Shown: positions 633 to 31,957 of the stretch, in pieces
Numbering within the stretch: position 1 is the first letter of the stretch
Layout of the letters: each line of letters opens with the position of its first letter
Virus record (IMG/VR): IMGVR_UViG_3300025914_000475
Coordinates: 1 to 32,651 of that record
Strand: one strand, 5' to 3'
DNA length: 32,651 nucleotides
Origin: a virus
Position numbers and translations under genes: made by a program
Notes under the pieces: model-generated
The model's database searches: none
The model's input: only the letters and a program-made list of their open reading frames with translations
Told to the model about the DNA's origin: nothing

Positions 633-652
633 TATCGAGGTAAAACACCTAT

Positions 653-692
653 GCGGGTGTAGCTCAGTTGTTAGAGCGCGTCCTTGCCAAGG
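653..692 (+). pseudogene. 5' half of a tRNA-Gly gene; candidate left attachment junction (attL)
   Basis: The first 39 bases match the intact tRNA-Gly at 766 with two mismatches. They contain the acceptor 5' strand, D arm and an anticodon loop reading TTGCCAA (anticodon GCC). The anticodon stem begins to close (CCTTG-C-CAAGG, 682-692). Homology then stops: there is no T arm and no 3' acceptor strand. A 7-bp hairpin (GGATAGG, loop ATCA, CCTATCC; 691-708) follows at once. A strong promoter still sits upstream, so this was probably the functional host gene before it was interrupted. The simplest reading is that a phage integrated at the anticodon stem-loop and left the 3' half at its far end, outside this window. 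Decay of a tandem tRNA duplicate is the alternative. Confidence 0.6.
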
Positions 693-765: not shown

Positions 766-841
766 GCGGGTGTAGCTCAGTCGTTAGAGCGCGTGCTTGC
801 CAAGCACGAGGTCCCGGGTTAGAGTCCCGGTACCCGCACCA
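766..841 (+). tRNA. tRNA-Gly (anticodon GCC)
   Basis: This is a complete 76-nt cloverleaf with encoded CCA. The acceptor GCGGGTG pairs with TACCCGC (one G-U), the D stem is GCTC/GAGC, and the anticodon stem CGTGC/GCACG encloses loop TTGCCAA with anticodon GCC. The T stem is CCGGG/CCCGG, followed by discriminator A and CCA. Two oddities: the D loop (AGTCGTTA) has one G where GG normally sits, and the T loop is TTAGAGT rather than TTCGAGT. Position 56 is therefore A instead of C. A 19-56 tertiary pair could be preserved as U-A. It probably replaces the host tRNA interrupted at 653 and is transcribed from that promoter. Confidence 0.9.
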
Positions 842-1326: not shown

Positions 1327-2019
1327 ATGGCTAATACAGAGAAAGAAGGACAGGCTATAGCTTCGCAAAAAAAGATTGCGATCTATAAAGAAGTCGTCCC
1401 TCTAACCGTCGGCATGTTTGCTGACGATACAAAGCTTAGCAAAGAAAAAATGATCGCAACATTACATCGCTCCGTTTTAGGTATCACTAAAACTGGCGAG
1501 CTGCGACCAATAAATGATCTTAAATTATTTTTAACTATTGCTAATCAATATGGATTAAATCCATTTAAAAAAGAAATCTACGCAACCTATGTCTGGGATT
1601 CTAGCAGGGGCCGTGAGGAACTTACACCAATAGTTTCAATCCATGGATTGCGCAAACTTTGCCGTAATTCGTCGTTACCTCGCTATACCCATACGGGTGC
1701 GGCTACCTTGGAATTTGATGCAGACGGCACAATCATAAGCGCTACAGTGCCAGTATTTGGCTACTTTGGAGCCAGTCTGCTTTCACCAGTACAACCAGTC
1801 GAAATTACAAGTTACACTGCCTATTTTGATGAGTTTGCACGTAAGAAAAAGGACGGCGACCTCAATAAAATGTGGAACGAAAAACCACGCATGATGCTCA
1901 CTAAATGTGCAGAAGCTAACGCGTTACGTCAAGGCTTCGACATCAGCGGTATTTACATTGAGGAAGAGATTGCAAACGATAACGTCATTGACGTAGACCC
2001 GGAGGCAAATAATGGCTAG
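1327..2019 (+). CDS. recT: RecT/Bet-family single-strand annealing protein
   Basis: At 230 residues this has the usual Bet/RecT length. Its core resembles that family: a segment reading LFLTIANQYGLNPFKKEIYA (about residues 65-84), then a beta-rich middle, then PRMMLTKCAEANALRQGF (about 190-207), which is the typical C-terminal core motif. Such proteins coat 3' single-stranded tails and anneal them to complementary DNA during phage recombination and replication. The start is fixed by a perfect AGGAGGT 9 bp upstream. It overlaps the next gene by 8 bp. That gene encodes a nuclease, the normal partner that makes the single strands. The acidic C-terminal tail is common among annealing proteins. 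Confidence 0.88.
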   Translation: MANTEKEGQAIASQKKIAIYKEVVPLTVGMFADDTKLSKEKMIATLHRSVLGITKTGELRPINDLKLFLTIANQYGLNPFKKEIYATYVWDSSRGREELTPIVSIHGLRKLCRNSSLPRYTHTGAATLEFDADGTIISATVPVFGYFGASLLSPVQPVEITSYTAYFDEFARKKKDGDLNKMWNEKPRMMLTKCAEANALRQGFDISGIYIEEEIANDNVIDVDPEANNG

Positions 2020-3994
2020 GGTTGAACATTTAAGCTATTCATCAATCCTTACGTTTCTGCGCAACCAGGTTGAATTCCAGAAGCGATATATTGCCAAGGT
2101 TTGGGACAATGCAAAATCACCATCAATGGTGGTTGGCACGGCGTTTCACAAGGCCATGGAGGAATTTTACCTTGGACATCCAATGCAGGAATCAATCACC
2201 GCAGGACTCCGAGAAATTGAAATCACCAGCGATTACGAAATTGATTACGGTAAAACCGGTAGTCGCGAGAAAATGATTCAAGAATACACATCACTAGTCA
2301 ATAAATATTTTGAGGAATGCCCAAAGTATGACGTTGTTGATGTAGAAAAACGCCTAGAATCATCAGTTAATGCAGTACCAATGGTGGGTGTCATTGACCT
2401 TGTAGTGCGCAACAGTGGCAAGCTAGCCCTAGTTGACCACAAAACGGTCTCGTTCTACTCACCAGAGGGAGAAGAGAATTACAAATATTTGCTCCAAGGG
2501 TACATATACCTTGTGCTTGCTGAAAATGAGTACGAGGAAAAGATTGAATCGGTAACGTTCAGCGAGATCAAAAAAAGCATTAACCGTGATGGCACGCCAC
2601 AGCGACGAGAAGTTATATATGATCGTGAATCGCTACTAGCATTTGCTCCGGTTGCGCAAAAGATTATCACCAACGTATTTTCATACGTCAATGACGACAA
2701 TGCTCGGTTCTTCCCCAACCCATCAGACATACTTAACGGCCAAGCATCGATGGAACTGGTGTCAAACATGGAAGAGGGTTTTGAAGCTAAGCGAGTTAAT
2801 CGCCAGGTTAAAGTTGCTGATAAGTTTGCTCCTCGCAATGTGACAATCGACATCGATGAAGCAACCGGCAACAACGAAGATCTGATACTACGAAAGTTCA
2901 TAGAGTTTGGGATCGGTGGCGTTATTGGCACCACCTACAAAGGCGCGTCGGTGATTCGCTACACGTTCAAGCCTAACCGCGGCATATCAATGAACAGCAT
3001 CGCAAAGCGCGGGGATGATCTTGCCATAGCTCTAAAGTCGAAATCTGTACGAATTGAGGCACCTATTGCTGGCACCGACCTCGTAGGCGTTGAAATTCCA
3101 AACGAAGACCGCCGCACGATCAATTTAGAAGACAGGCACCTTAAACCCGGCACGATGGAAATCCCATTAGGTGAAGATATCTTTGGTAAAACTCATTACT
3201 CCGATATTACAAAGATGCCCCATCTCCTTATTGCTGGTCAAACTGGCTCTGGTAAATCAGTAATGATTAACGTCATTCTCGAAGCGCTAACAAAGCAAAT
3301 GACGGCAGATGCATTAAAGCTGGTTCTGATTGATCCAAAGCAGGTGGAGTTGGCAGCATATTCTCGCAGCCCACACCTATTACGTGAAGAGCAGCTTAGA
3401 TTCAAAGGCATAATAACCGACTCGGTAACTGCATCAAACGCGTTGGACGATATGGTTAGGCTGATGGAATCTCGATACGAAGTGCTTCGCAAGGCGCGAG
3501 TACGATCCATCGAAGAGTACAAAAAGGGTGATATGCCTCGCGTCGTAGTAGTGATTGACGAGTTTGCCGATCTTATGATGCAAGACACGAAAATGGGCAT
3601 TGAATCGGTTGATTATGACGTGTTGAAAGAATGCATACTTAACAATCTTGGAAGCAAGGGTATTACAAAAACCGGGCTAAAAAAGGCAGTTAAAGAGGCT
3701 ATCGAAACTACCGCTCCACCTAGCTGTGAACATTCTATCGTTCGCATCGCTCAAAAGGCTCGTGCTGTCGGCATTCACTTAATACTTGCAACACAGCGGC
3801 CAAGCGCGGATGTTGTGACCGGTCTGATTAAAGCCAATGTTCCGACAAAGATCGCATTTAGCGTGACTACTGCCATGAACAGCAAGATCATTCTCGACCA
3901 ATCCGGCGCCGAAAAGCTAACTGGCTATGGTGACATGCTTTATCAAGATCCAAGGTCTAAAAACCTTGAACGTTTACAGGGGTTCTATATATGA
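2012..3994 (+). CDS. RecB-like PD-(D/E)XK nuclease fused to an FtsK/SpoIIIE-type DNA translocase
   Basis: This 660-residue protein has two parts. Residues 1-about 240 carry RecB/Cas4-type nuclease motifs: H46 (GTAFHKA), D129 (GVID), D142-H-K144 (VDHK) and Q162-x3-Y166. Residues about 280-375 look like the FtsK alpha domain. Residues about 376-660 form the RecA-like motor, with Walker A GQTGSGKS (409-416), Walker B VVVVIDEFADLM (D516, E517), the downstream motif ILATQRPSADVVTGLIKANV, and GDMLY near the end. There is no membrane anchor and no C-terminal gamma (KOPS-reading) domain. About 45 extra residues lie between Walker B and the ATQRP region. It overlaps the RecT-like gene, so I infer a translocating exonuclease that resects DNA ends for annealing, comparable in logic to HerA-NurA but in one chain. 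Confidence 0.85.
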   Translation: MARVEHLSYSSILTFLRNQVEFQKRYIAKVWDNAKSPSMVVGTAFHKAMEEFYLGHPMQESITAGLREIEITSDYEIDYGKTGSREKMIQEYTSLVNKYFEECPKYDVVDVEKRLESSVNAVPMVGVIDLVVRNSGKLALVDHKTVSFYSPEGEENYKYLLQGYIYLVLAENEYEEKIESVTFSEIKKSINRDGTPQRREVIYDRESLLAFAPVAQKIITNVFSYVNDDNARFFPNPSDILNGQASMELVSNMEEGFEAKRVNRQVKVADKFAPRNVTIDIDEATGNNEDLILRKFIEFGIGGVIGTTYKGASVIRYTFKPNRGISMNSIAKRGDDLAIALKSKSVRIEAPIAGTDLVGVEIPNEDRRTINLEDRHLKPGTMEIPLGEDIFGKTHYSDITKMPHLLIAGQTGSGKSVMINVILEALTKQMTADALKLVLIDPKQVELAAYSRSPHLLREEQLRFKGIITDSVTASNALDDMVRLMESRYEVLRKARVRSIEEYKKGDMPRVVVVIDEFADLMMQDTKMGIESVDYDVLKECILNNLGSKGITKTGLKKAVKEAIETTAPPSCEHSIVRIAQKARAVGIHLILATQRPSADVVTGLIKANVPTKIAFSVTTAMNSKIILDQSGAEKLTGYGDMLYQDPRSKNLERLQGFYI

Positions 3995-5847: not shown

Positions 5848-6039
5848 ATGATATCACCAACACTGGTGCGCAGAATCAGAAATGAAGTGCCGGAAGAGGG
5901 GTTTGTACTTGACACGACAGAGCGGGAATTTATGAATGCCGCTCGTTATTTGAAGGACGATCTCCGTGCTAGCGATGATGATGTAATCAAGATGTTACGT
6001 GGCCTCTACGTTGCCATGAGCGAAGAATATGGGGCATAG
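5848..6039 (+). CDS. Small acidic hypothetical protein
   Basis: This 63-residue protein is probably helical (RRIRNEVPEEGFVLDTTEREFMNA, then DDDVIKMLRGLYVAM). A strong SD (GGAGGG, 7 bp before the ATG) fixes the start. It is the first gene after a structured gap and may open a second early transcription unit running through GroEL. The family is not recognised. Confidence 0.55.
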   Translation: MISPTLVRRIRNEVPEEGFVLDTTEREFMNAARYLKDDLRASDDDVIKMLRGLYVAMSEEYGA

Positions 6040-6041
6040 GG

Positions 6042-6518
6042 ATGTCTTATTCTTCTACTCGGTCGAGTTCGTCACGATCATACAGTTCAACAAGATCGTC
6101 GAGTTCATCGAAGTCGTCTAGCTCGGGCTATAGTTCCACCCGATCATCGTCAAGCAGCTCTAGCGGTTACAAATCGACTAGGCCGAGCACGCCCATCACA
6201 AGATCAAACGTTTATAGCATGACAACTCCCACCCAGCGCACAACGGTTATAAACAACTATCACAGTGACATGTATGGCTTTAACAGCTTCTTCCATCCTT
6301 TTGGCTGGGGCTATGGATCGGGTGATTTCTGGTTTTGGATGTGGATTTTTGACAATAACCAGTTCAATCAGAATACCCAAATTGCTCAGGCTACCAATGT
6401 GAACGTAAATCAACCGCCTGCAAACAATTTCTGGGCTGATGCATTGTTGATAGCTATTGTTATCGGCTTTGTAGCTGCCGTTTGGGCAATAACACGTCGC
6501 ATTAGGCGCGGCTGGTAA
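6042..6518 (+). CDS. Serine-rich, membrane-anchored protein
   Basis: This 158-residue protein begins two bases after the previous stop. Residues 1-about 50 are low-complexity repeats built from YSSTRSSSSS-like units. The middle is Asn- and aromatic-rich (FGWGYGSGDFWFWMWIFD, about residues 85-103). Residues about 131-151 form a transmembrane helix (ADALLIAIVIGFVAAVWAI), followed by a basic tail RRIRRGW. There is no signal peptide, so it is probably tail-anchored or N-out. The composition is unlike its neighbours and suggests a surface- or membrane-modifying accessory gene; superinfection exclusion is one guess. No family was recognised. Confidence 0.6.
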   Translation: MSYSSTRSSSSRSYSSTRSSSSSKSSSSGYSSTRSSSSSSSGYKSTRPSTPITRSNVYSMTTPTQRTTVINNYHSDMYGFNSFFHPFGWGYGSGDFWFWMWIFDNNQFNQNTQIAQATNVNVNQPPANNFWADALLIAIVIGFVAAVWAITRRIRRGW

Positions 6519-7317: not shown

Positions 7318-8918
7318 TGTCAAAAAAAGTATTTTACGATGAAGATGCGCGCAAACGAATCCTAGCCGGTGCTGAGCTGCTATACAATGCAGTTAAAGTG
7401 ACCATGGGCCCTAGAGGTCGCAATGTAGTGATTGGTAAACAATACGGCGGAGCTCCGAAAGTTACGCACGATGGTGTTAGCGTTGCGAGGTCTTTTGAGC
7501 TTACAGACACCGAAATGACCATGGGGTATGCCACGGGTGTCGAGCTTATAAAGAGCTCATCTGTCAAAATGGACGAACTAGGTGATGGTACTACTACCGT
7601 GACTGTCCTTACATATCACATCCTTAATGAAGCAAACAAGCTGATCGCAGTTGGCCATAATCCTATGCAGCTACGTGAAAGTTTGGAAAAAGCAGGATAT
7701 GCTGCGCTTGATGCACTCCAAGAGATGAGCGAGGATATCTCGCAGGATTCTCGAAAAGTTGCCGAAGTTGCGACAATTAGTGCCGGCGGCGATGTCAAAA
7801 TTGGCGGCATGATTGCTGATGTTATGAAAATTGTTGGCAACGAGGGTGTTGTCACCGTGGAAGCTAGTCAAGGCACACAGCTTGAATCAGAGGTTGTTGA
7901 GGGTTATACATTCGATCGTGGTTACGTTAGCCCATACATGGTTACCGATGTCGCACGCATGGAGGCGGCTTATAATCAGCCACTAATCCTAGTCACGGAT
8001 AAAAAGATTTCAAACATTCAGGAGATATTGCCACTACTTGAAAAAATGGCAACTGCTGGTAAAAAAGAGCTCGTTATTATTGCGGAAGATGTTGACGGTG
8101 ATGCGCTCGGCAGTCTCATCCTAAATAAGATCAAGGGAGTATTCAATACGGTTGCCGTCAAAGCACCTTCTTATGGTGAAAACCGCAAGGAAGTTCTAAA
8201 CGACATTGCCGCACTTGTTGGTGCTGAGGTCGTAAGTGAAGCAACAGGAATGGCGTTTGCGGATGTAGATATTGCATCTCTAGGATCAGCTCGTCGTGTA
8301 TTAGTGAAAAAAGACAGTACTACGATCATTGAGGGCAAAGGCGATGCAAACCACGTTGCAGAGCGTATTGCGCAGCTGAGCGACCACATTGAACATGCTG
8401 ATGGTGAGTTTAAGCGCGACAACCTAAAAGAGCGCAGGGCTGCACTAAGTGGCAAAGTAGCTGTTATTAAGGTCGGTGGTATTAGCGAAACAGAAATGAG
8501 CGAAAAGAAAGATCGTGTTGACGACGCTGTGGCAGCGGCTAAAGCTGCATTGGCCGAGGGAATCGTGGCTGGTGGTGGCGTAACGCTACTTAATGTCGCC
8601 GATAGGCTGGAAAGCGATGAGACGGGCTATAAGCTATTAAAAAATGCGCTACAAATGCCGTTCCGTATTCTTCTTGAAAATGCTGGTATTACACCGGAAG
8701 AATGGCTGCCGCAGATTCGGGGCAAAGTTGGTATGGGTATAAATGTTAATAATCCCGAGAAGGTTATCGATCTTAAAAAGAACGGTGTGATTGATCCAGT
8801 GCTCGTTACTAAGGAAGCTATCCAAACTGCCATTTCTATATCTGGAACAGCTATGACAATGGGTGCATTGGTTGTCGAAGAGGCAAAAGACAACAATAAC
8901 AACGCAGAGGTAGCATAA
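7317..8918 (+). CDS. groL: GroEL chaperonin
   Basis: This full-length, 533-residue GroEL has intact equatorial, intermediate and apical parts: AVKVTMGPRGRNVVI near the N-terminus, HDGVSVAR, ATP-binding GDGTTT, apical VTDKKISNIQEILPLLEKM and IIAEDVDGDALGSLI, then VDDAVAAAKAALAEGIVAGGG carrying the catalytic Asp region. The C-terminus ends in an Asn-rich stretch (DNNNNAEVA) and lacks the usual GGM repeat tail. It is clearly coupled to groES. The pair stands among phage genes between early hypotheticals and the terminase, so I read it as phage-encoded, probably to fold coat or tail proteins. An ordinary host operon would not be expected here. Confidence 0.95.
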   Translation: MSKKVFYDEDARKRILAGAELLYNAVKVTMGPRGRNVVIGKQYGGAPKVTHDGVSVARSFELTDTEMTMGYATGVELIKSSSVKMDELGDGTTTVTVLTYHILNEANKLIAVGHNPMQLRESLEKAGYAALDALQEMSEDISQDSRKVAEVATISAGGDVKIGGMIADVMKIVGNEGVVTVEASQGTQLESEVVEGYTFDRGYVSPYMVTDVARMEAAYNQPLILVTDKKISNIQEILPLLEKMATAGKKELVIIAEDVDGDALGSLILNKIKGVFNTVAVKAPSYGENRKEVLNDIAALVGAEVVSEATGMAFADVDIASLGSARRVLVKKDSTTIIEGKGDANHVAERIAQLSDHIEHADGEFKRDNLKERRAALSGKVAVIKVGGISETEMSEKKDRVDDAVAAAKAALAEGIVAGGGVTLLNVADRLESDETGYKLLKNALQMPFRILLENAGITPEEWLPQIRGKVGMGINVNNPEKVIDLKKNGVIDPVLVTKEAIQTAISISGTAMTMGALVVEEAKDNNNNAEVA

Positions 8919-10423: not shown

Positions 10424-10874
10424 TCAGTCGCCGCATCCAGTAAAGGTATGGCGTAATGTTCGGACATTGAAGAAAGCGCGGGCACACATCAAAAACCCGC
10501 GCCCATCCGATTACGAATATCGCATTGAGAAAGTCGAAGAGCTGTCAAAGCAAGGTGTGGTGACTATAGTACAATTTGCCGCATGGAAAGGAGTGCATCG
10601 CACCACCATTACCACCGGTTATTCTGAGGGTGACTATAAAGAGGCATACCAGCACATTCTAGCGGTTTGTGAGGCATTTAGTGAAACGTATCTATACGAT
10701 ACCGAAAATCGTAACTCAGCGGGCGTGATCTTTTCGATGAAGAATGCCTATGGTTACACTGATAAAAGCGAAATGGAGTTATCTGGCTCTGTTAATCAGC
10801 CGCTTAGCGAAGAGGCCAAAGCTATACTTGCCAAGGCAACGAGAGCGAGTGAAGATGGCTCTACCGAGTCCTGA
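10332..10874 (+). CDS. terS: Terminase small subunit
   Basis: This 180-residue protein has a basic N-terminus (KKATKQRGPKP). A helix-turn-helix region follows (VTIVQFAAWKGVHRTTITTGYSEG, about residues 76-100), suited to recognising the packaging site. The C-terminal AYGYTDKSEMELSGSVN resembles the 'GYxDKxExExSG' ending common in small terminases. It lies directly before and overlaps the large terminase. A clear AGAAAGGA SD precedes the ATG. The small subunit oligomerises, binds phage DNA and hands it to the motor. Confidence 0.82.
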   Translation: MAKKATKQRGPKPTWTTPAQLLKDFELFLHDQSPHPVKVWRNVRTLKKARAHIKNPRPSDYEYRIEKVEELSKQGVVTIVQFAAWKGVHRTTITTGYSEGDYKEAYQHILAVCEAFSETYLYDTENRNSAGVIFSMKNAYGYTDKSEMELSGSVNQPLSEEAKAILAKATRASEDGSTES

Positions 10875-19309: not shown

Positions 19310-20071
19310 ATGAGTCGCCGTCAATACATAACTTCCACATATCTTACGAGCTATTTAGGAAGCCAAACATTGACCGGCGACTTTCCTTCTCCCGATGGTT
19401 TGATTGATATGGCCGAGCAGATGATCGACAGTTATGTTGGCCCTCAGCGCAAATGGTTCCAGCTAGACAGTTCGTTTATTGCCGGTGTTTATACTCCTCC
19501 TGATTATGAGCCAGAAACACCAGTGGTCAAAGAATTGCGTGGCCGTATTACGCAGGTTGTAAGTCCTACGCAATACATGATTGAGACGTGGCAACAGCAT
19601 GCTTACCAAAATAACTTCTTTCAAATGTGTAATTTGGACATCATAGGCGGTATGGGGAATGGCAATAGCTATATTATTAGTGCTTCTACGCTTGCGGGGC
19701 AGATCACCATTACAAATATTGATGGTACGAGCCCATCGGTGGCCGTTTTTGACACAACGAGCGTGTACCGCATCTATCAGCTCGGTAAATTCCCACGAGA
19801 TAGGGATGTATTCTATAATACCTTCCAAAACCCTACATTCTATTACAAATCAGTTCCTGAGCAAGTACGTGAAGCAGTTGCGGCACAAGCTGAATTTATC
19901 AATAAGATGGGTCTATCCTACTTCACGTCGGAACGCCTAACAAGTGAGCATATCGGCCCATACAGCTATACCAGGGCTGCACATTCTGTTAAAGATGATA
20001 CCCTTATCGCTCCCAAAGCGAAAATGTTGCTACGCGGTTACATGAGTCGCCGAGGGACGATGATGGTATGA
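19310..20071 (+). CDS. Head-tail connector (adaptor) protein
   Basis: This 253-residue protein begins with the helical pattern of gp15/gp6-type connectors (YITSTYLTSYLGSQTL, then DGLIDMAEQMIDSYVG). A beta-rich insert spans about residues 70-170, and the C-terminal helix PEQVREAVAAQAEFINKMG closes it. The insert makes it longer than typical 100-150-residue connectors. It follows the head genes, and its stop overlaps the next start (ATGA). The adaptor ring binds below the portal. The SD is AGAGAGGAATA. Confidence 0.7.
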   Translation: MSRRQYITSTYLTSYLGSQTLTGDFPSPDGLIDMAEQMIDSYVGPQRKWFQLDSSFIAGVYTPPDYEPETPVVKELRGRITQVVSPTQYMIETWQQHAYQNNFFQMCNLDIIGGMGNGNSYIISASTLAGQITITNIDGTSPSVAVFDTTSVYRIYQLGKFPRDRDVFYNTFQNPTFYYKSVPEQVREAVAAQAEFINKMGLSYFTSERLTSEHIGPYSYTRAAHSVKDDTLIAPKAKMLLRGYMSRRGTMMV

Positions 20072-20394: not shown

Positions 20395-20891
20395 TGGCTG
20401 AAAATGACGACACACAACCTTATAGCCTGAGTTTTGACACGAAGGCACTCGATTTGTGGGCGTCGTACGTTGGTGGCAATGCTGGCAATATCATTCGTCT
20501 GCATACTAACCTTGCACTGAAAAACGCCGCCGGAATAGTGCAGCGTCGAGAATACAAGGAGGCGCCACGCGGCGTTACTGGTGGGCTGATTAAATCCATT
20601 CGCCAGATCGTGACAGAGGCGATTGCAACTATTGGCCCCGCCGCCAACAAGTATGCTATCTACATCGAAAAAGGGACTAAGCCGCACATGCCACCTATTG
20701 ATGCGATCACGCCGTGGGCTGAGAGCGTAGGTATTAATCCATGGGCTGTGGCAATGAGCATCAAGAAGAAAGGCACGCAAGCAAATCCGTTTGTTAAGCG
20801 TACCTTTGGTGTTACAAAGGGTGACGTTAAAGCTGAATTTGCGCTAGCTACTGTACGCATAACCTCTGCACTAGCAGCGAAAGGATTTTAA
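20394..20891 (+). CDS. HK97 gp10-like neck / tail-completion protein
   Basis: These 165 residues carry the recognisable block APRGVTGGLIKSI, then IGPAANKYAIYIEKGTKPHMPP, then WAESVGINPWAVAMSIKKKGTQANPF. The 'YA.YIE.GT.PH.PP' and 'KKGT.ANPF' signatures are typical of gp10-like proteins that join heads and tails. It starts on the last base of the previous stop (TAATG). Confidence 0.8.
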   Translation: MAENDDTQPYSLSFDTKALDLWASYVGGNAGNIIRLHTNLALKNAAGIVQRREYKEAPRGVTGGLIKSIRQIVTEAIATIGPAANKYAIYIEKGTKPHMPPIDAITPWAESVGINPWAVAMSIKKKGTQANPFVKRTFGVTKGDVKAEFALATVRITSALAAKGF

Positions 20892-25948: not shown

Positions 25949-27643
25949 ATGCAAGCAGTATCCTCGACATTCCAAGCAAACACAGTCGCAGCCAACCAAT
26001 ACCCAACGTATGCGATTTTAATTTCGTGGCTCGAAACCATCAATACGTCCTATTCGTTTTTTACTATTGGCACCTCAAAGATCGGTGGTCCGGACGTTAT
26101 TAAGGGCTCTGGCAGCTCTGTCACGTTTCTCGATCGCTATCAATATACCGACTATTCTCAGTATGGTGTGAGCGTTGACGTTAACCAGGCATTGGGCCAA
26201 TATCCGTACGGCACTCTCATGGCCATGTGCACAATTAAGCTTGAAAATACGAGCCAAATATTTACGCAGGGTAACGACCCAACAATTGGCAACTACATAC
26301 TGCCTAACCGACCGGTTAAGTTTACCGTTGGATTTGCAAGCGATATTAATGGTTCAAGTCGTGAAGATATAGCAATGTTTGCCGGCTATAGTACGGCGCC
26401 AGACAATGATATTTTAAACCGTGATACAACGCTCATATGTTACGACGGCATGAATTACCTAAATAACACTCCATCGGCTGGTGGTGGGCCGCTGGCGGCC
26501 GCAAATGGAGGTGTGTATGTAAATACATATGCTCATTTGATTATCGCCGATCTGATGCAAGAAGCAGGATTTTCAAGTAGTCAATATGTTATCGAACAGA
26601 GCTTGCAGCAACCCATTGGCTTTCTGGCACCAATTAACTTTCAGGGTGGCACAAATACCGGGGGTAACCAGGGGTCTATTGGTTATATTATTTCGGCACT
26701 ATGTGAAGCAGAGCTTGGTATTGCATTCTTTGACGAAGCTGGTATATTTCACTTTTGGAATCGGCAACACATTCCAAACAACCAAACTGTACAATGGAAA
26801 TTTGATTATAATGAGACGCTTGGTGGTGGTAATAACACGGGTATTGTTGATTATTCGATTGAAAACACACCAGTCATTAACGATGTTGTTGTAGTGGCTA
26901 ACCCGCGCGCCGTTCAAGCAAAGCAAGAGGTGTGGCAGCTTACCCAACCTTTTCTAATACCAGCAGGCTCGACCGCTCAGCTCTCCGTTGATTTTACGGA
27001 CGCCGACGGCGCACTGCCGGTTACATCAGTAGATACCCCTGTATATTACACATCGGCAACAAGCTCAAATTATTCCACAAACCTCAACCAAGACGGCTCT
27101 AGCACCTTGGATGTACATGGTAATATATCGATCACAGGCACAACGCTCAAAGGCTCTAACTACCTTATAACATTCCAAAATACCTATTCGCAGCCGGTCT
27201 ACGTAACGTCTCTTAACTTGTATGGCACACCAGCCAAAGTAACCATGCAGATTAACCAGGAGTTTAGCGACGCCACTTCTATAGGCCTCTATGGTGCTAA
27301 CCCGGCAAATAATGGTCTTCCGATTAAAATTGCAAATGATCTTATTCAAGATCCGAATACTGCAAACTCGATTGCCTACCAACTCGTTACAGATTATAAA
27401 ATACCCCAACAGCGTATTGTTGCCGAGGTAATGAGTGTGCCACAGATTCAGTTTGGCGATTTTACGCAAATGACATTATCTGATATCAGCCAAACAAAGA
27501 ATTATACCGTTGTCGGTAAATCGTTCACGCTTAGCAAAGAGGAGCCATTTCAACAGAAGTTGGAAATGGAAGTTAAGCAAATGGTTAGCTATTTTACGAT
27601 TGGTACATCACTAATTGGTGGTACAGACCAAATAGCGCCGTAA
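25949..27643 (+). CDS. Baseplate / tail tip protein
   Basis: This 564-residue, beta-rich protein follows the distal tail gene by one base. Its domain order suggests a hub-like N-terminal half, a carbohydrate-binding-like middle (TAQLSVDFTDADGALPVTSVDT, then a jelly-roll style stretch) and a closing segment near PQIQFGDFTQMTLSDISQTKNYTVVGKSFTL. The latter resembles the end of Tal/gp27-like hub proteins. FFTIGTSKIGGPDVI near residue 37 recurs as YFTIGTSLIGGTDQI at the C-terminus. It ends one base before the convergent gene. Assignment is by position and style. Confidence 0.6.
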   Translation: MQAVSSTFQANTVAANQYPTYAILISWLETINTSYSFFTIGTSKIGGPDVIKGSGSSVTFLDRYQYTDYSQYGVSVDVNQALGQYPYGTLMAMCTIKLENTSQIFTQGNDPTIGNYILPNRPVKFTVGFASDINGSSREDIAMFAGYSTAPDNDILNRDTTLICYDGMNYLNNTPSAGGGPLAAANGGVYVNTYAHLIIADLMQEAGFSSSQYVIEQSLQQPIGFLAPINFQGGTNTGGNQGSIGYIISALCEAELGIAFFDEAGIFHFWNRQHIPNNQTVQWKFDYNETLGGGNNTGIVDYSIENTPVINDVVVVANPRAVQAKQEVWQLTQPFLIPAGSTAQLSVDFTDADGALPVTSVDTPVYYTSATSSNYSTNLNQDGSSTLDVHGNISITGTTLKGSNYLITFQNTYSQPVYVTSLNLYGTPAKVTMQINQEFSDATSIGLYGANPANNGLPIKIANDLIQDPNTANSIAYQLVTDYKIPQQRIVAEVMSVPQIQFGDFTQMTLSDISQTKNYTVVGKSFTLSKEEPFQQKLEMEVKQMVSYFTIGTSLIGGTDQIAP

Positions 27644-27644
27644 A

Positions 27645-28115
27645 TTACGCGCCAATCGCTATCCATGTGTAAAAACCAAAGCCAGCAGAAAAGTTACCAC
27701 CAGAAGGTTTGTGTAGATAAACGGTAAAGCCTGATGCTGTGGGTAATACCGGCTTTGTTTGTACTAATGCCTCGACTAAGTTGCCGTTCGATCCATATAT
27801 TTGTGATGTCGAATGGTCACCAGCAAAGCTCGTAAGGATTATGGGGGGATTTGTAAAAGGTGTCCCAAATGTCACCGTTTCACTAATAAATGTAGAGCCT
27901 GTATTATACGCAATAACGCCCCAGCCGGTTAGAATACGAGCTGCTGTTTCCGTCGTGTTCGTTGTATCATTCTGTCTAGTGGTAAGGTAGCTTGAAATCG
28001 CCGACCCTGTAACCGAGCCATTAGCCAAGTGCCTTGCAATGATAATTCCATCATTAAACCCGTTACCATTGTTGAAGGACGCGTCATTGCTACCGATATG
28101 ATCCGCAATGGCCAA
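27645..28115 (-). CDS. Alternative tail-fibre C-terminus (silent cassette), oriented leftward
   Basis: In the current orientation this reads as 156 residues starting MAIADHI, then GSNDASFNNGNGFNDGI (shared residue for residue with the fibre at 28710). A different C-terminus follows, with TGWGVIAYNTGSTFISETVTFGTPFTNPPIILTSF and ending YLHKPSGGNFSAGFGFYTWIAIGA, a beta-rich receptor-binding-type end. No SD precedes the apparent ATG. The seven residues before the shared block look accidental, so I read this as the stored half of an invertible fibre gene and not a stand-alone gene. It ends one base from the tail-tip gene stop. Confidence 0.65.
   Translation of the reverse strand: MAIADHIGSNDASFNNGNGFNDGIIIARHLANGSVTGSAISSYLTTRQNDTTNTTETAARILTGWGVIAYNTGSTFISETVTFGTPFTNPPIILTSFAGDHSTSQIYGSNGNLVEALVQTKPVLPTASGFTVYLHKPSGGNFSAGFGFYTWIAIGA
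28044..28096 (-). repeat. Left 53-bp inverted repeat of the fibre switch
   Basis: It is the perfect reverse complement of 28783-28835, with all 53 bases identical, including silent positions. It encodes the shared GSNDASFNNGNGFNDGI block in the leftward cassette. Identity stops sharply at both ends. Confidence 0.9.
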
Positions 28116-28126
28116 CAGATACCGCT

Positions 28127-28146
28127 ATGGTTGATTAAAACACAAC
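28127..28146 (+). promoter_or_regulatory. Late-gene promoter element, copy 5 (inside the invertible segment)
   Basis: Exact match to ATGGTTGA-N7-ACAAC (N7 = TTAAAAC), with AGATACCGCT upstream as in copy 4. The next ATG is 19 bp away, with no SD. Its position means that the direction of fibre transcription follows the orientation of the segment. Confidence 0.75.
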
Positions 28147-28165
28147 GAGCTCAGACAATCAAAAC

Positions 28166-28717
28166 ATGATTCATAAGAGCTCGATTGGCTTAAAAACAGC
28201 AAAACACCTCAGCCGACTACTCCAAGAGGAGCAGGAACCTGATGCTCGTGCCGAGGCTAAGGAGATTCTTGATTTCTATCTAAAAAACTATGAAATTGTA
28301 CAAATTGTACGATGTGATGGGTGTGGCTCAGATCTCTGCCTGGAAGTGCTTGATCCTGATCAATATGCGATGAACCTCACGCACTATCACCATGAGGGTT
28401 TGCGTATGATCGAACTCGCTGGTGCGCCACTATTATCTCGCCGAAAGCGGCTTGATGGTGCTATGGGCTATGAATGTAAATGCGGTAATAACACACTTAA
28501 CTCAGAGGTAGAGCTTGGCCTAATACCTAGTGTCAAAATTAGAAAAGGTACGACTGTTATGCCCGGTTCCATTCCTACTATCCAGCCCCACCATGAGGCC
28601 GCTGTGGCACTCCAAATTGCTAATCAACACTATACGCCAGATGTAACGATTAATGGTGCATTCAAGACTACGGAAACATTTACGGTCGAACGCATAAAGG
28701 GGCCAGCTCATGCCTAG
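28166..28717 (+). CDS. Hypothetical zinc-binding protein encoded inside the invertible segment
   Basis: This 183-residue protein has helices up to residue 45. A cysteine cluster CDGCGSDLC (about residues 49-57) and a later CKCGNN (about 101-104) follow, probably coordinating one zinc. The C-terminus is beta-rich (PDVTINGAFKTTETFTVERI). It starts 19 bp after late element 5 and overlaps the fibre gene by 8 bp, so it would be made with either fibre version. It could be a fibre assembly factor or an adaptor to the tail tip; the family is unknown. Confidence 0.6.
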   Translation: MIHKSSIGLKTAKHLSRLLQEEQEPDARAEAKEILDFYLKNYEIVQIVRCDGCGSDLCLEVLDPDQYAMNLTHYHHEGLRMIELAGAPLLSRRKRLDGAMGYECKCGNNTLNSEVELGLIPSVKIRKGTTVMPGSIPTIQPHHEAAVALQIANQHYTPDVTINGAFKTTETFTVERIKGPAHA

Positions 28718-29360
28718 CTCTGGTTACGCCACGATCTCGTTTACTGCTGGCGAGCAGCCAACAACCGCAAAGTGGAATCTTGTCGGTAGCAATGACGCGT
28801 CCTTCAACAATGGTAACGGGTTTAATGATGGAATTTTGGTACCACGCCACTTTTCTTCGACCGCGGTAAATTCGAGCGTAGTTGATTGGACGACAGCGGG
28901 TGGAATATGGTGGCAAGAACTAGGTCGCGCAACTGCCTCGGTCGCTGGTACGACTATTACCATATCATCCATACCAGCACGTACGTATCTCCGAATCTTA
29001 GTGAACTTATTACCGACAGCGGCGACGAGTACCGTTAAGTTAATTTTTAACGGTGATTCGGGTACGAACTACGGCTATCGCTTATCGACAAACGGAAGTG
29101 CAGATTCAACGGGTACATTTGCTGGTTTACCTATAGATACGGCTGCAAGTCCTGCGAGTGTTATGTGGGTAGAGCTCGAAGGAAACAACAATGCCAGTAA
29201 GGCAAAGCTCTTTGTAGGGCACTCGATAGATGAGAACTGTAATCGTCGTGAGCTAAATGCCTTGTGGTCTAACACATCGGCCCAGATCAACAGCATTGCA
29301 TTGAACACTTCCGTGAATATGGCGGTCGGTTCAGAAATTATAGTATTGGGTCATAACTAG
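28710..29360 (+). CDS. Tail fibre protein, currently expressed version
   Basis: These 216 residues have a short N-terminus (MPSSGYATISFTAGEQPTTA, then KWNLV, residues 1-25). The shared GSNDASFNNGNGFNDGI block (26-42) comes next, then a beta-rich C-terminal domain (RATASVAGTTITISSIPARTYLRILVNLLP, later VMWVELEGNNNASKAKLFVGHS). The latter resembles lectin-like or adhesin tips. N-terminal 'ATISFTAGEQPTTAKWN' with 'GSNDASF' is a style I associate with fibres of small bacterial phages. The first 25 codons lie inside the invertible segment and the rest lies outside it. Confidence 0.65.
   Translation: MPSSGYATISFTAGEQPTTAKWNLVGSNDASFNNGNGFNDGILVPRHFSSTAVNSSVVDWTTAGGIWWQELGRATASVAGTTITISSIPARTYLRILVNLLPTAATSTVKLIFNGDSGTNYGYRLSTNGSADSTGTFAGLPIDTAASPASVMWVELEGNNNASKAKLFVGHSIDENCNRRELNALWSNTSAQINSIALNTSVNMAVGSEIIVLGHN
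28783..28835 (+). repeat. Right 53-bp inverted repeat of the fibre switch
   Basis: Perfect inverted copy of 28044-28096. The reading frame within the repeat is identical in both copies (GGT AGC AAT GAC...), so recombination anywhere inside keeps the fibre frame. Confidence 0.9.
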
Positions 29361-29375
29361 ATAGCGTTTTGGTTG

Positions 29376-29395
29376 ACTGTTGCCTCTGTTACAAC
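29376..29395 (+). promoter_or_regulatory. Late-gene promoter element, copy 6 (degenerate)
   Basis: This site matches the consensus at 13 of 20 bases and keeps the GTTG-N9-CAAC core. A second half-site, TTGGTTGA, begins at 29369. The next ATG (29409) is 13 bp further on, with no SD. It makes genes from 29409 on independent of the fibre-switch orientation. Confidence 0.5.
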
Positions 29396-29408
29396 GTGTA
29401 ATAGTCGT

Positions 29409-29993
29409 ATGGGTAGCCAAGATAAAAACCTCCGTCAAGTCGCTATTCCGTATTACGGGCAAATCATGGGATATAACCGAGCGGAGCAATCAGACCAAGA
29501 CGTTTCTATAGCTCAGCTAGTTTATGGATCTGGTGTTGCCCAAGCGGGTGATCTTTACCCATTCACATACAGTAGTGCTCAAAAAGATTTTATGGTGAGA
29601 ATCCTACGGCCACAATTTGGCCAACTGATTGAGGCGTATTTAAATCTTAGTTTGACGTTCGATACTGCTGAAACCTCGCCAAAATTCTACGTTTCCGCTG
29701 GCTCCGGCTATGCAGCTGATGGTACTACCCCGATTGTTCCATCCCAAAGCTATATTCAACAGGCGCATCAAACAATTACCGGACAAACATCCCCGCTTAC
29801 TGGCGTTGCCGGACAGCCTATGACGCAATATAAGCTAAATATTCTGTCACTATTACCTCTGGGGCCTGGTTCGACCAATTTCAATCCCGATAGTTTTGTT
29901 GTGGGTATTCATTTCTTGCAAACGCCAGTTATGACCGGTTTATTTCATTTGCAAAAATTCTTCGTAACAGGAAGTGCATTGGTAATACCATAA
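29409..29993 (+). CDS. Hypothetical tail/fibre-region protein
   Basis: These 194 residues start at the ATG after late element 6. The open frame extends upstream, but that stretch runs through the promoter element. The protein is beta-rich (LIEAYLNLSLTFDTAETSPKFYVSAGSGYA and FVVGIHFLQTPVMTGLFHLQKFFVTGSALVIP), with no transmembrane helix or enzyme motif. It starts a run of three beta-rich proteins and is likely a virion component. Confidence 0.55.
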   Translation: MGSQDKNLRQVAIPYYGQIMGYNRAEQSDQDVSIAQLVYGSGVAQAGDLYPFTYSSAQKDFMVRILRPQFGQLIEAYLNLSLTFDTAETSPKFYVSAGSGYAADGTTPIVPSQSYIQQAHQTITGQTSPLTGVAGQPMTQYKLNILSLLPLGPGSTNFNPDSFVVGIHFLQTPVMTGLFHLQKFFVTGSALVIP

Positions 29994-31141
29994 TGGGCAT
30001 GCTTGATAAACGTTCGGCGGCAGTACCGTTAAATACCTTTCGCCAGGACTATAATATTATTGCTTTTGTTCCGGGTCGTGGGGCGACTGGTAGCTCGCCG
30101 ACAGGGGTAACGCGATATACTTATTGGCTCGATTGTGATCCGTTTGATATATATAACCGGAGTCTCATTAGTCAAAACGTTAGTTTTCAGATATTTGCAG
30201 ATTCATTGCTCTCTACGGCTATTGTTCCTTATATAATTGTGGATCAAAGCGATGATATTCCCGATGAGCAGGTAATTGTAGGTCCTACGTCATTAGGCGG
30301 CTCGATAATATTAGCGCCGGGGCAGCCGCCTTACTATCTCAATACCAAATTCCTAGCCCAGCCTATTAACTCTAATTTCCAAAACGATCAGGGTCGCTAT
30401 AGTATGGCGGGGTATGTCGGACAGGGTACAGGTTTCGGAGGAACGCAGATGGTCGGCCAGGCATTCGTGCCAAAGCAGTCGAAACTAACGGGATTCTCCC
30501 TAGCTGAACTATTCCACACCAATATTACAGATCATACTAAATTCTTTAATCTCAACTTTGAGCTATGGAATTCAAACAAGCAGTTTGTGGCGCATATAGG
30601 CACTTTGCAGCCAACCTACAACGCGGCGGTGCAACCGTCTGGCTTAACGACAGACAGTAGTTGTACGGCGTATTGTAGCGGCATTACATATAATATCTGT
30701 GACGACAGCATAAAACGCTGGATCACTCTTAACCAGGTAAATATACAGCTCAATAGCCCGGTTAATGTTTCACCTGGACAAACGTATTATATAATCGTTC
30801 GCCAGGCAACTCTTAGCACTACTAATTATTATTTCCTCGGTAACAATACCAAAAGCACAGGTGCGTTATCAGGATCGGGGCGCTATACTGCCTATGATCA
30901 AACAGGCGCAGCAGTGGCTGCACATGCAATTATTGCGGCCGACGGGTCTTCGACATTCTCCAATGTTGTAGATATAAATGGTAATCCGGTCGATTTTCCG
31001 TTTACTACCCAAGGGAATACGGGTCGTATAGCCGTGACATTCTGGTGGGGTAATCAGTCAACATCATATTGGTCTACACCGCCGCAAAATCTGCCGGGCA
31101 GTTTCAAATTTATTCACCTGGATTTTGACCAAAGGATATAG
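29993..31141 (+). CDS. Hypothetical receptor-binding-type protein
   Basis: This 382-residue protein is predominantly beta-strand and Ser/Thr/Asn-rich, with three cysteines close together (CTAYCSGITYNIC, about residues 222-234). Elements such as NLNFELWNSNKQFVAHIGTL and VSPGQTYYIIVRQATLSTTNYYFLG resemble carbohydrate-binding or choice-of-anchor adhesin folds. It overlaps the previous stop by one base (TAATG). It is probably a distal tail or receptor-binding subunit. No specific family was recognised. Confidence 0.55.
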   Translation: MGMLDKRSAAVPLNTFRQDYNIIAFVPGRGATGSSPTGVTRYTYWLDCDPFDIYNRSLISQNVSFQIFADSLLSTAIVPYIIVDQSDDIPDEQVIVGPTSLGGSIILAPGQPPYYLNTKFLAQPINSNFQNDQGRYSMAGYVGQGTGFGGTQMVGQAFVPKQSKLTGFSLAELFHTNITDHTKFFNLNFELWNSNKQFVAHIGTLQPTYNAAVQPSGLTTDSSCTAYCSGITYNICDDSIKRWITLNQVNIQLNSPVNVSPGQTYYIIVRQATLSTTNYYFLGNNTKSTGALSGSGRYTAYDQTGAAVAAHAIIAADGSSTFSNVVDINGNPVDFPFTTQGNTGRIAVTFWWGNQSTSYWSTPPQNLPGSFKFIHLDFDQRI

Positions 31142-31142
31142 T

Positions 31143-31649
31143 ATGGGTAGTGAATCAGGGTCACAAATATTTCCGCTTAGCTTTAAAACAGCAGCAATAA
31201 CCAACCTCGGTCCTGGCGGCAATACGGGTATTGATGCGGTTTATGATAATATCTTAAAACCTCAATATGGTGTAATAGGCTTTCAGCTTTACCAGCCATA
31301 CAATATGTATGCGGTAAAAAAGATGAAGATGCACTTTAGGTGTAAATTTGCCAGCAGTGTAACGACTCCACAGCAAATCATTAACAAAATAGTGGTTGGC
31401 AGTAATGGTAGTGGCTTACCTTCGCCCACCGCGCCATCTATTACCGTGAACTTCACACCGGTTAGTGGTGTACTCGATTTTACAATTGATCTTAAAAGCT
31501 TAATTACGCCAACCGGCGATAATATAGTATTTCTTTATTTGCCAAAGGCTCTAGTACCGGGCGATATTGGTTGGTCTGGTAGCTATAACCAAATTCAAGT
31601 ACAAGTATGGAAGCTCGATATGCTTTATCAGACAGTGGGGATACGATGA
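31143..31649 (+). CDS. Hypothetical beta-rich tail-region protein
   Basis: This 168-residue protein uses the ATG at 31143 with SD AAAGGA. The frame is open 18 bp further upstream inside the previous gene, but that start has no SD. Its content (FRCKFASSVTTPQQIINKIVVGSNGSG, ITVNFTPVSGVLDFTIDLKSLI) resembles the preceding protein's strands and suggests another virion tip component. It overlaps the next gene by 4 bp (ATGA). Confidence 0.55.
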   Translation: MGSESGSQIFPLSFKTAAITNLGPGGNTGIDAVYDNILKPQYGVIGFQLYQPYNMYAVKKMKMHFRCKFASSVTTPQQIINKIVVGSNGSGLPSPTAPSITVNFTPVSGVLDFTIDLKSLITPTGDNIVFLYLPKALVPGDIGWSGSYNQIQVQVWKLDMLYQTVGIR

Positions 31650-31957
31650 AAAAACACCGACCATTCAAACCGACAAAGGCCGATATCAATGAACGCCGCA
31701 AACATCATCCAGGTAAACGATTAGACTGGTTGCCTGGCCAAGAGCCGGTATTTGAACATAAAACTGTAACCACTACTGCTTGCGTTATTTGCGGGATAGC
31801 CTTTGCCCGGCCTGAAACAGTTTGTAATAGCTGTGGTAATTGCCAAGCATGTGGTGGCATTACAATCGATAGATTTGGAAACTCCTGCAACCAGTGTGGC
31901 AATCATATTGATCAGCCACGCTTTGATACCCTCGGGCCTATGATTTATACAAATTAG
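31646..31957 (+). CDS. Zinc-ribbon protein
   Basis: This 103-residue protein has a basic N-terminus (MKKHRPFKPTKADINERRKHHPGKRL). A cluster of cysteines follows: CVIC, then CNSCGNCQACGG, then CNQCGN, enough for two zinc ribbons (about residues 45-90). The start at 31646 overlaps the previous gene by 4 bp; an in-frame ATG 39 bp upstream lies inside that gene. Zinc ribbons among tail genes are uncommon. A regulatory or assembly role is possible. Confidence 0.6.
   Translation: MKKHRPFKPTKADINERRKHHPGKRLDWLPGQEPVFEHKTVTTTACVICGIAFARPETVCNSCGNCQACGGITIDRFGNSCNQCGNHIDQPRFDTLGPMIYTN

Follow-up and report, generated by a model that had tools for sequence, protein, structure and literature searches.

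A putative two-state switch of receptor-binding tips in a phage tail-fibre gene, with the late promoter element and constant N-terminus inside the proposed invertible segment

Can a phage exchange one receptor-binding tip for another by means of an inverted repeat within its tail-fibre gene and, if so, which part of the locus flips? The question is raised by the window, i.e. the whole stretch of DNA analysed (32,651 bases). It is from a phage, is incomplete, is coding mainly rightward, and has terminase, portal and RecT genes as well as a gene for a GroEL-like chaperone (the latter identified by reading its sequence). Immediately 3′ of the RecT gene, a single protein combines a PD-(D/E)XK nuclease with an FtsK motor, including the alpha domain of the latter. 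The best explanation of the fibre locus, to which a probability of roughly three in four is given, is a two-state invertible switch of receptor-binding tip. Strand exchange between identical repeat arms would flip a 686-bp segment. As proposed, the present state has a late element, a zinc-ribbon gene and the fibre N-terminus facing right, with the N-terminus continuing into the C-terminus on the right (216 aa). Once flipped, the segment would face left and join a stored, lectin-like C-terminus in the same frame (174 aa), and late transcription would then yield a fibre with another binding tip. Inversion, its site-specificity, action of the element as a promoter and a change of host range are what we infer.

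The repeat itself, with perfect 53-bp arms and 686 bp between them, is present where the sequence-only reading of this DNA had placed it (Table 1). By comparison, the longest exact inverted repeat in each of 20 dinucleotide shuffles was 14-18 bp. Both arms are in identical reading phase, as had been claimed, and the repeat is so situated inside the fibre reading frame that either C-terminus can be joined without loss of frame; the length of the hybrid fibre that a flipped segment would encode was computed from this phase. All of the arm codons are identical (17/17), silent sites included. On the N-terminal side of the arms identity breaks off sharply against unrelated DNA. Just past the arms on the C-terminal side, 12 of 24 nucleotides are identical while the proteins are still similar (GILVPRHFS / GIIIARHLA), and since the proteins remain alike where the DNA does not, the identity of the arm DNA exceeds what the protein would need. 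Beyond the arm and about six further residues the two C-termini have no evident similarity, in keeping with their earlier description as unrelated ends facing outward. Single-strand folding of the arm gave nothing unusual, and a 9-base match between the arm and a tRNA-like copy (CGCGTCCTT) was set aside as chance because it is missing from a close relative.

Table 1. Positions of the features discussed, in window coordinates
Feature	Position	Strand	Remarks
Partial tRNA-like copy	640..691	+	upstream of tRNA-Gly(GCC)
tRNA-Gly(GCC)	766..841	+	
RecT-family annealing protein	1327..2019	+	
PD-(D/E)XK nuclease joined to FtsK motor	2012..3994	+	
Upstream tail protein gene	25949..27643	+	phrog_1887 tail protein, E 1.2e-4
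Stored fibre C-terminus	27645..28115	-	open from arm to stop at 27645; TTG at 28115 is a mechanical start only
Left arm	28044..28096	-	codons GSNDASFNNGNGFNDGI
Proposed invertible segment, 686 bp	28097..28782		late element, zinc-ribbon gene and fibre codons 1-25; putative inversion
Putative late promoter element TATGGTTGA-N7-ACAAC	28126..28146	+	within segment, directed at zinc gene
Zinc-ribbon protein gene, 183 aa	28166..28717	+	Zn_ribbon_LysW weak, E 0.0095
In-use fibre gene, 216 aa	28710..29360	+	constant N-terminus and current C-terminus
Right arm	28783..28835	+	codons 25-42 of fibre
Downstream genes 29373-29993, 29993-31141, 31125-31649, 31607-31957	29373..31957	+	common to distant relative G001; no own late element found

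What lies between the arms (a late promoter element, a zinc-binding gene and fibre codons 1-25) was also confirmed. Six copies of the element are present in the window, all on the rightward strand, as against 0.19 expected, and the close relative, G006, carries the same element before its zinc gene; the copy within the segment is taken to be a promoter. The zinc-ribbon protein is 62% identical to its counterpart in G006 and 43% to that in a distant relative, G001. The same kind of fibre N-terminus was found at 34 viral loci, and in most of the relatives examined a zinc-ribbon gene precedes it; used alone as a query, the zinc protein found no viral relative. The N-terminus of the in-use fibre is conserved up to about residue 43, and a model of this fibre predicted without relatives was unusable (pLDDT 38).

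The contention that both orientations are workable fared unevenly. On the left, the stop of the tail-protein gene ends at 27643 and that of the stored cassette, on the opposite strand, starts at 27645, so that the two end tail to tail as described. For the genes on the right, a late element of their own had been placed at 29376. The sequence there is GGTTGA followed 14 nt on by ACAAC, where the consensus spacing is 7, and scanning did not pick it out even when 3 mismatches were permitted; it does not belong to this family of late elements. With no late element confirmed for these genes, the flipped state may lower their transcription, and they may then rely on read-through from upstream or on an unrecognised promoter.

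The stored C-terminus comprises 149 open codons and is without an N-terminus or start region of its own. It resembles the in-use fibre tip at locus L077, at 48% identity across an alignment of 109 aa (E 1e-28), and it also matches in-use fibre C-termini at L078, at L087 and in G001. Relatives in its alignment match H_lectin (best E 3.8e-4) and Gp53-like_C (E 3.5e-4), with the match of the window protein itself to H_lectin being weak (E 0.03). A model of only modest confidence, with pLDDT averaging 61 but reaching 70-88 over most of the tip, was paired by Foldseek with the knobs of R-type pyocin fibres and with Helix agglutinins at a probability of 1.00 and query TM-scores of 0.35-0.48. Neither C-terminus had a match among 50,697 phage records. 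Homology and the model together identify the stored leftward end as a genuine fibre tip, predicted to be receptor-binding and H-type-lectin-like.

Particularly pertinent is the one close relative found that covers the fibre region, G006 (IMGVR_UViG_3300037069_002169, 35.4 kb), which is homologous to the window in its zinc gene, tail gene and capsid. It too carries inverted arms in its fibre gene, at 19838-19870 and 20683-20715 (identical over 33 bp, or 44 bp with one indel), and the repeats of both phages begin at the same T of TCGGTAGCAATGA. The layout in G006 is Mu-like: its repeats enclose two C-termini that oppose each other, and the zinc gene and constant N-terminus lie outside them. Among the 34 family loci such a repeat at the fibre is found, besides the window, only in G006 and in a second contig of 8 kb that is its 100% identical duplicate and in the same orientation state. 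The arms of the two phages differ at 10 of 33 positions, yet match within each phage, which suggests continuing exchange. Either the repeats arose twice at one nucleotide, in which case a recognised site is suggested, or they are old and have been kept identical by exchange. Tempering this, the stored arm of G006 is one T short (four where there are otherwise five), so that its flipped fibre, as deposited, would end early at a TGA, a point against the switch. In G006 (L056, 2736-2760) a half-matching late element is situated about 20 bp past the stored arm, and in the window the corresponding distance is 29 bp; the pairing of a late element with a stored arm may be a module common to both phages.

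The comparison of relatives for the opposite orientation, which had been recommended, gave no flipped form of the window segment, its yield being the G006 repeat with the same start and a Mu-like layout. No contig of opposite orientation is known, both G006-type contigs being identical and in one state, and contig searches gave no second contig of the window phage. In a scan of viral contigs with the 16-base start of the site, the two G006-type contigs were the only matches from the phage family; another 33 matching stretches are without the fibre N-terminus and look like chance, as does a single weak Flavobacterium match in a scan of genome contigs. The switch is the best reading of what sequence comparison and modelling provide, and it has independent support in the G006 repeat at the same nucleotide, the identity of arms within each phage, and a real lectin-like stored tip.

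What could flip the segment is a separate issue. The proposed search of the record for a serine or tyrosine invertase gave neither, the record being incomplete: serine recombinase (PF00239) was found neither in the window nor in 14 relatives (a control matched 10 of the 14 genomes), and neither phage integrase (PF00589) nor an IS110-type enzyme was found in the window record. The record is, though, without a counterpart of the 23.4-29 kb region of G006, where a tyrosine recombinase of 295 aa is encoded beside a tRNA-Gly and an endolysin-like gene is also present. Its first bases are an ATG and its last a stop codon, which gives the record the look of having been cut at gene boundaries. That recombinase is 8 kb from the fibre locus and looks like an integrase for the tRNA. 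The tRNA-Gly and partial copy in the window match a similar pair that in G006 comes just after the recombinase gene, and so mark a likely attachment region; their retention means that an integrase may lie beyond the left end of the window. The likely attachment region in G006 has no resemblance to the arms when both phages are considered.

A substantial minority of the probability goes to a different agent, with the phage RecT and nuclease, or host recombination, occasionally recombining the arms by homology and by inversion or gene conversion keeping them identical. At issue here is the agent and not whether the segment flips; it would be the same switch, slow and not site-specific. RecT and the PD-(D/E)XK-FtsK protein, which are encoded in the window (G006 also has RecT), are possible agents of such inversion, no recombinase was found in the record, and the arms are unlike the gix/hix or rix cores. 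There is a precedent in the pneumococcal spnIII locus, where inversions on longer repeats proceed without known recombinases, though they are RecA-independent (PMC6620402). A recognised site is nevertheless what a common start nucleotide in two phages of opposite topology points to, and the record is incomplete exactly where the relative has its tyrosine recombinase. A site-specific recombinase is the likeliest agent, encoded either by the host or in the part of the phage that the record lacks, with RecT-type homologous recombination the alternative.

The distant relative, G001, brings in the question of whether the stored end is alive at all. Where the window has the stored cassette, G001 has complete leftward fibre genes between its tail gene and zinc gene, and the fibre gene beside the tail gene has its stop one base from the tail-gene stop, as in the window. 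DNA positions of the G001 N-termini are only about 63-73% common, with no repeat found. A complete leftward gene in relatives had been named as a finding that would count against the switch; it is present in this distant phage. The stored end could be a relic: an ancestor with complete divergent fibres, as in G001, would have lost the 5′ end of its leftward gene, with the 53-bp identity reflecting one recent recombination or conversion. The complete leftward fibres of G001, the last of which likewise adjoins the tail gene, are as a relic would predict, and so is the want of a start region. This is nonetheless unlikely, as 149 codons are intact with strong homology to in-use tips, the cut is exactly at the arm edge that is also used in G006, and the arms are identical even at silent sites. 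With the switch retained as the preferred reading, sequence comparison suggests that the arrangement in the window may have arisen from two divergent fibre genes, one of which relinquished its start. Very improbable is an assembly artefact in which two fibre variants were joined at a common 53-mer, for though the contig is metagenome-derived and assemblies are often wrongly joined at identical repeats, an assembly error at one inverted pair within a single genome only reorients the segment and cannot turn a Mu-type layout into one with the N-terminus inside, and the tail-to-tail abutment agrees with G001.

Several other features of the family loci merit mention in their own right. In G001 one fibre N-terminus recurs in four genes, two per strand, and an HNH-type- or zinc-finger-like gene (L057, 15755-16282, minus strand) is situated between two of them. 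At L088 and L091 (near 6036-6060) an in-frame TGA (TGA CTT) comes after the codons for GEQ of the conserved fibre N-terminus; L084 also has an in-frame TGA after the GEQ codons (near 5952-6000), with a 45-nt insert containing a hairpin. In all three the fibre frame runs on intact past the TGA, and stop read-through, bypass or inactivation are possible; a changed genetic code was considered and was not supported. Repeats at L086 were rejected as a shufflon, being leader or ribosome-site repeats. At L069 (G016) a perfect 24-bp inverted repeat (8664-8687 and 10526-10549) surrounds 1.9 kb containing a tyrosine recombinase gene.

Among the closest parallels are the Mu G-segment, the P1 C-segment and p15B Min (with Gin, Cin and Min), where inverted repeats lie in a fibre gene, as here, and inversion exchanges the C-terminal receptor-binding part and leaves the N-terminus unchanged. 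In those systems it is the variable ends, inside the repeats, that flip, and the promoter and constant part stay in place outside. G006 has that layout; the segment of the window instead contains the N-terminus and late element, as the sequence-only reading had emphasised, and they are what would flip. The known systems also have an adjacent serine recombinase, of which there is none beside the segment. Their gix/hix/cix-type crossover sites have the core AAACC-NN-GGTTT; the arms gave no match to it when as many as 2 mismatches were allowed. A closer parallel in anatomy, and in anatomy only, is with sapA of Campylobacter fetus and slpA/slpB of Lactobacillus acidophilus, where the flipping unit is a promoter with a conserved 5′ coding region, and the genes on its two sides oppose each other and differ in their 3′ parts. 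These are bacterial S-layer genes and not phage fibres, and their repeats, sizes and enzymes differ. A further parallel is the Rin shufflon of bifidobacterial prophages, which by inversion varies the C-terminus of a phage receptor-binding protein, with several variable ends, an 11-bp rix site at each, the constant gene outside and an Xer-like tyrosine invertase adjacent; a prophage locus that inverts with no recombinase beside it has also been described (PMC6109161). In contrast, no PF00589 match was found in the window, which is without the region that holds the recombinase in G006, and the rix site (TTCCCTAACCC) is absent from the arms, its one match in the window at 1 mismatch being at 2711. 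The fibre cassette of G006 shares the repeat start and differs in its Mu-like layout and in the missing T of its stored arm.

In its operation, as interpreted, the window locus is akin to the fibre switches of Mu, P1, Min and Rin, but it lacks their tested defining features. The literature searched, with partial coverage, contains no phage fibre switch of this topology, which had been put forward as undescribed. That stands for phage fibres, with the topology appearing new to us, and does not stand for the flipping logic, which by analogy is already known from S-layer loci. A fuller proposal is that the promoter, zinc-ribbon gene and N-terminus flip together, with a fixed tip on either side, at a recombination site that the same lineage uses in a Mu-like topology, and might do so by a type of recombinase not yet linked to fibre switching; it is advanced tentatively, at somewhat short of even odds. 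With no known invertase in the record, the inversion agent is open to testing. If the switch is active, inversion moves the promoter also, and the choice of tip and the direction in which the segment is transcribed would change together. A lineage in which the repeats of both topologies start at one nucleotide would then reveal how such switches evolve, perhaps from divergent fibre genes like those in G001.
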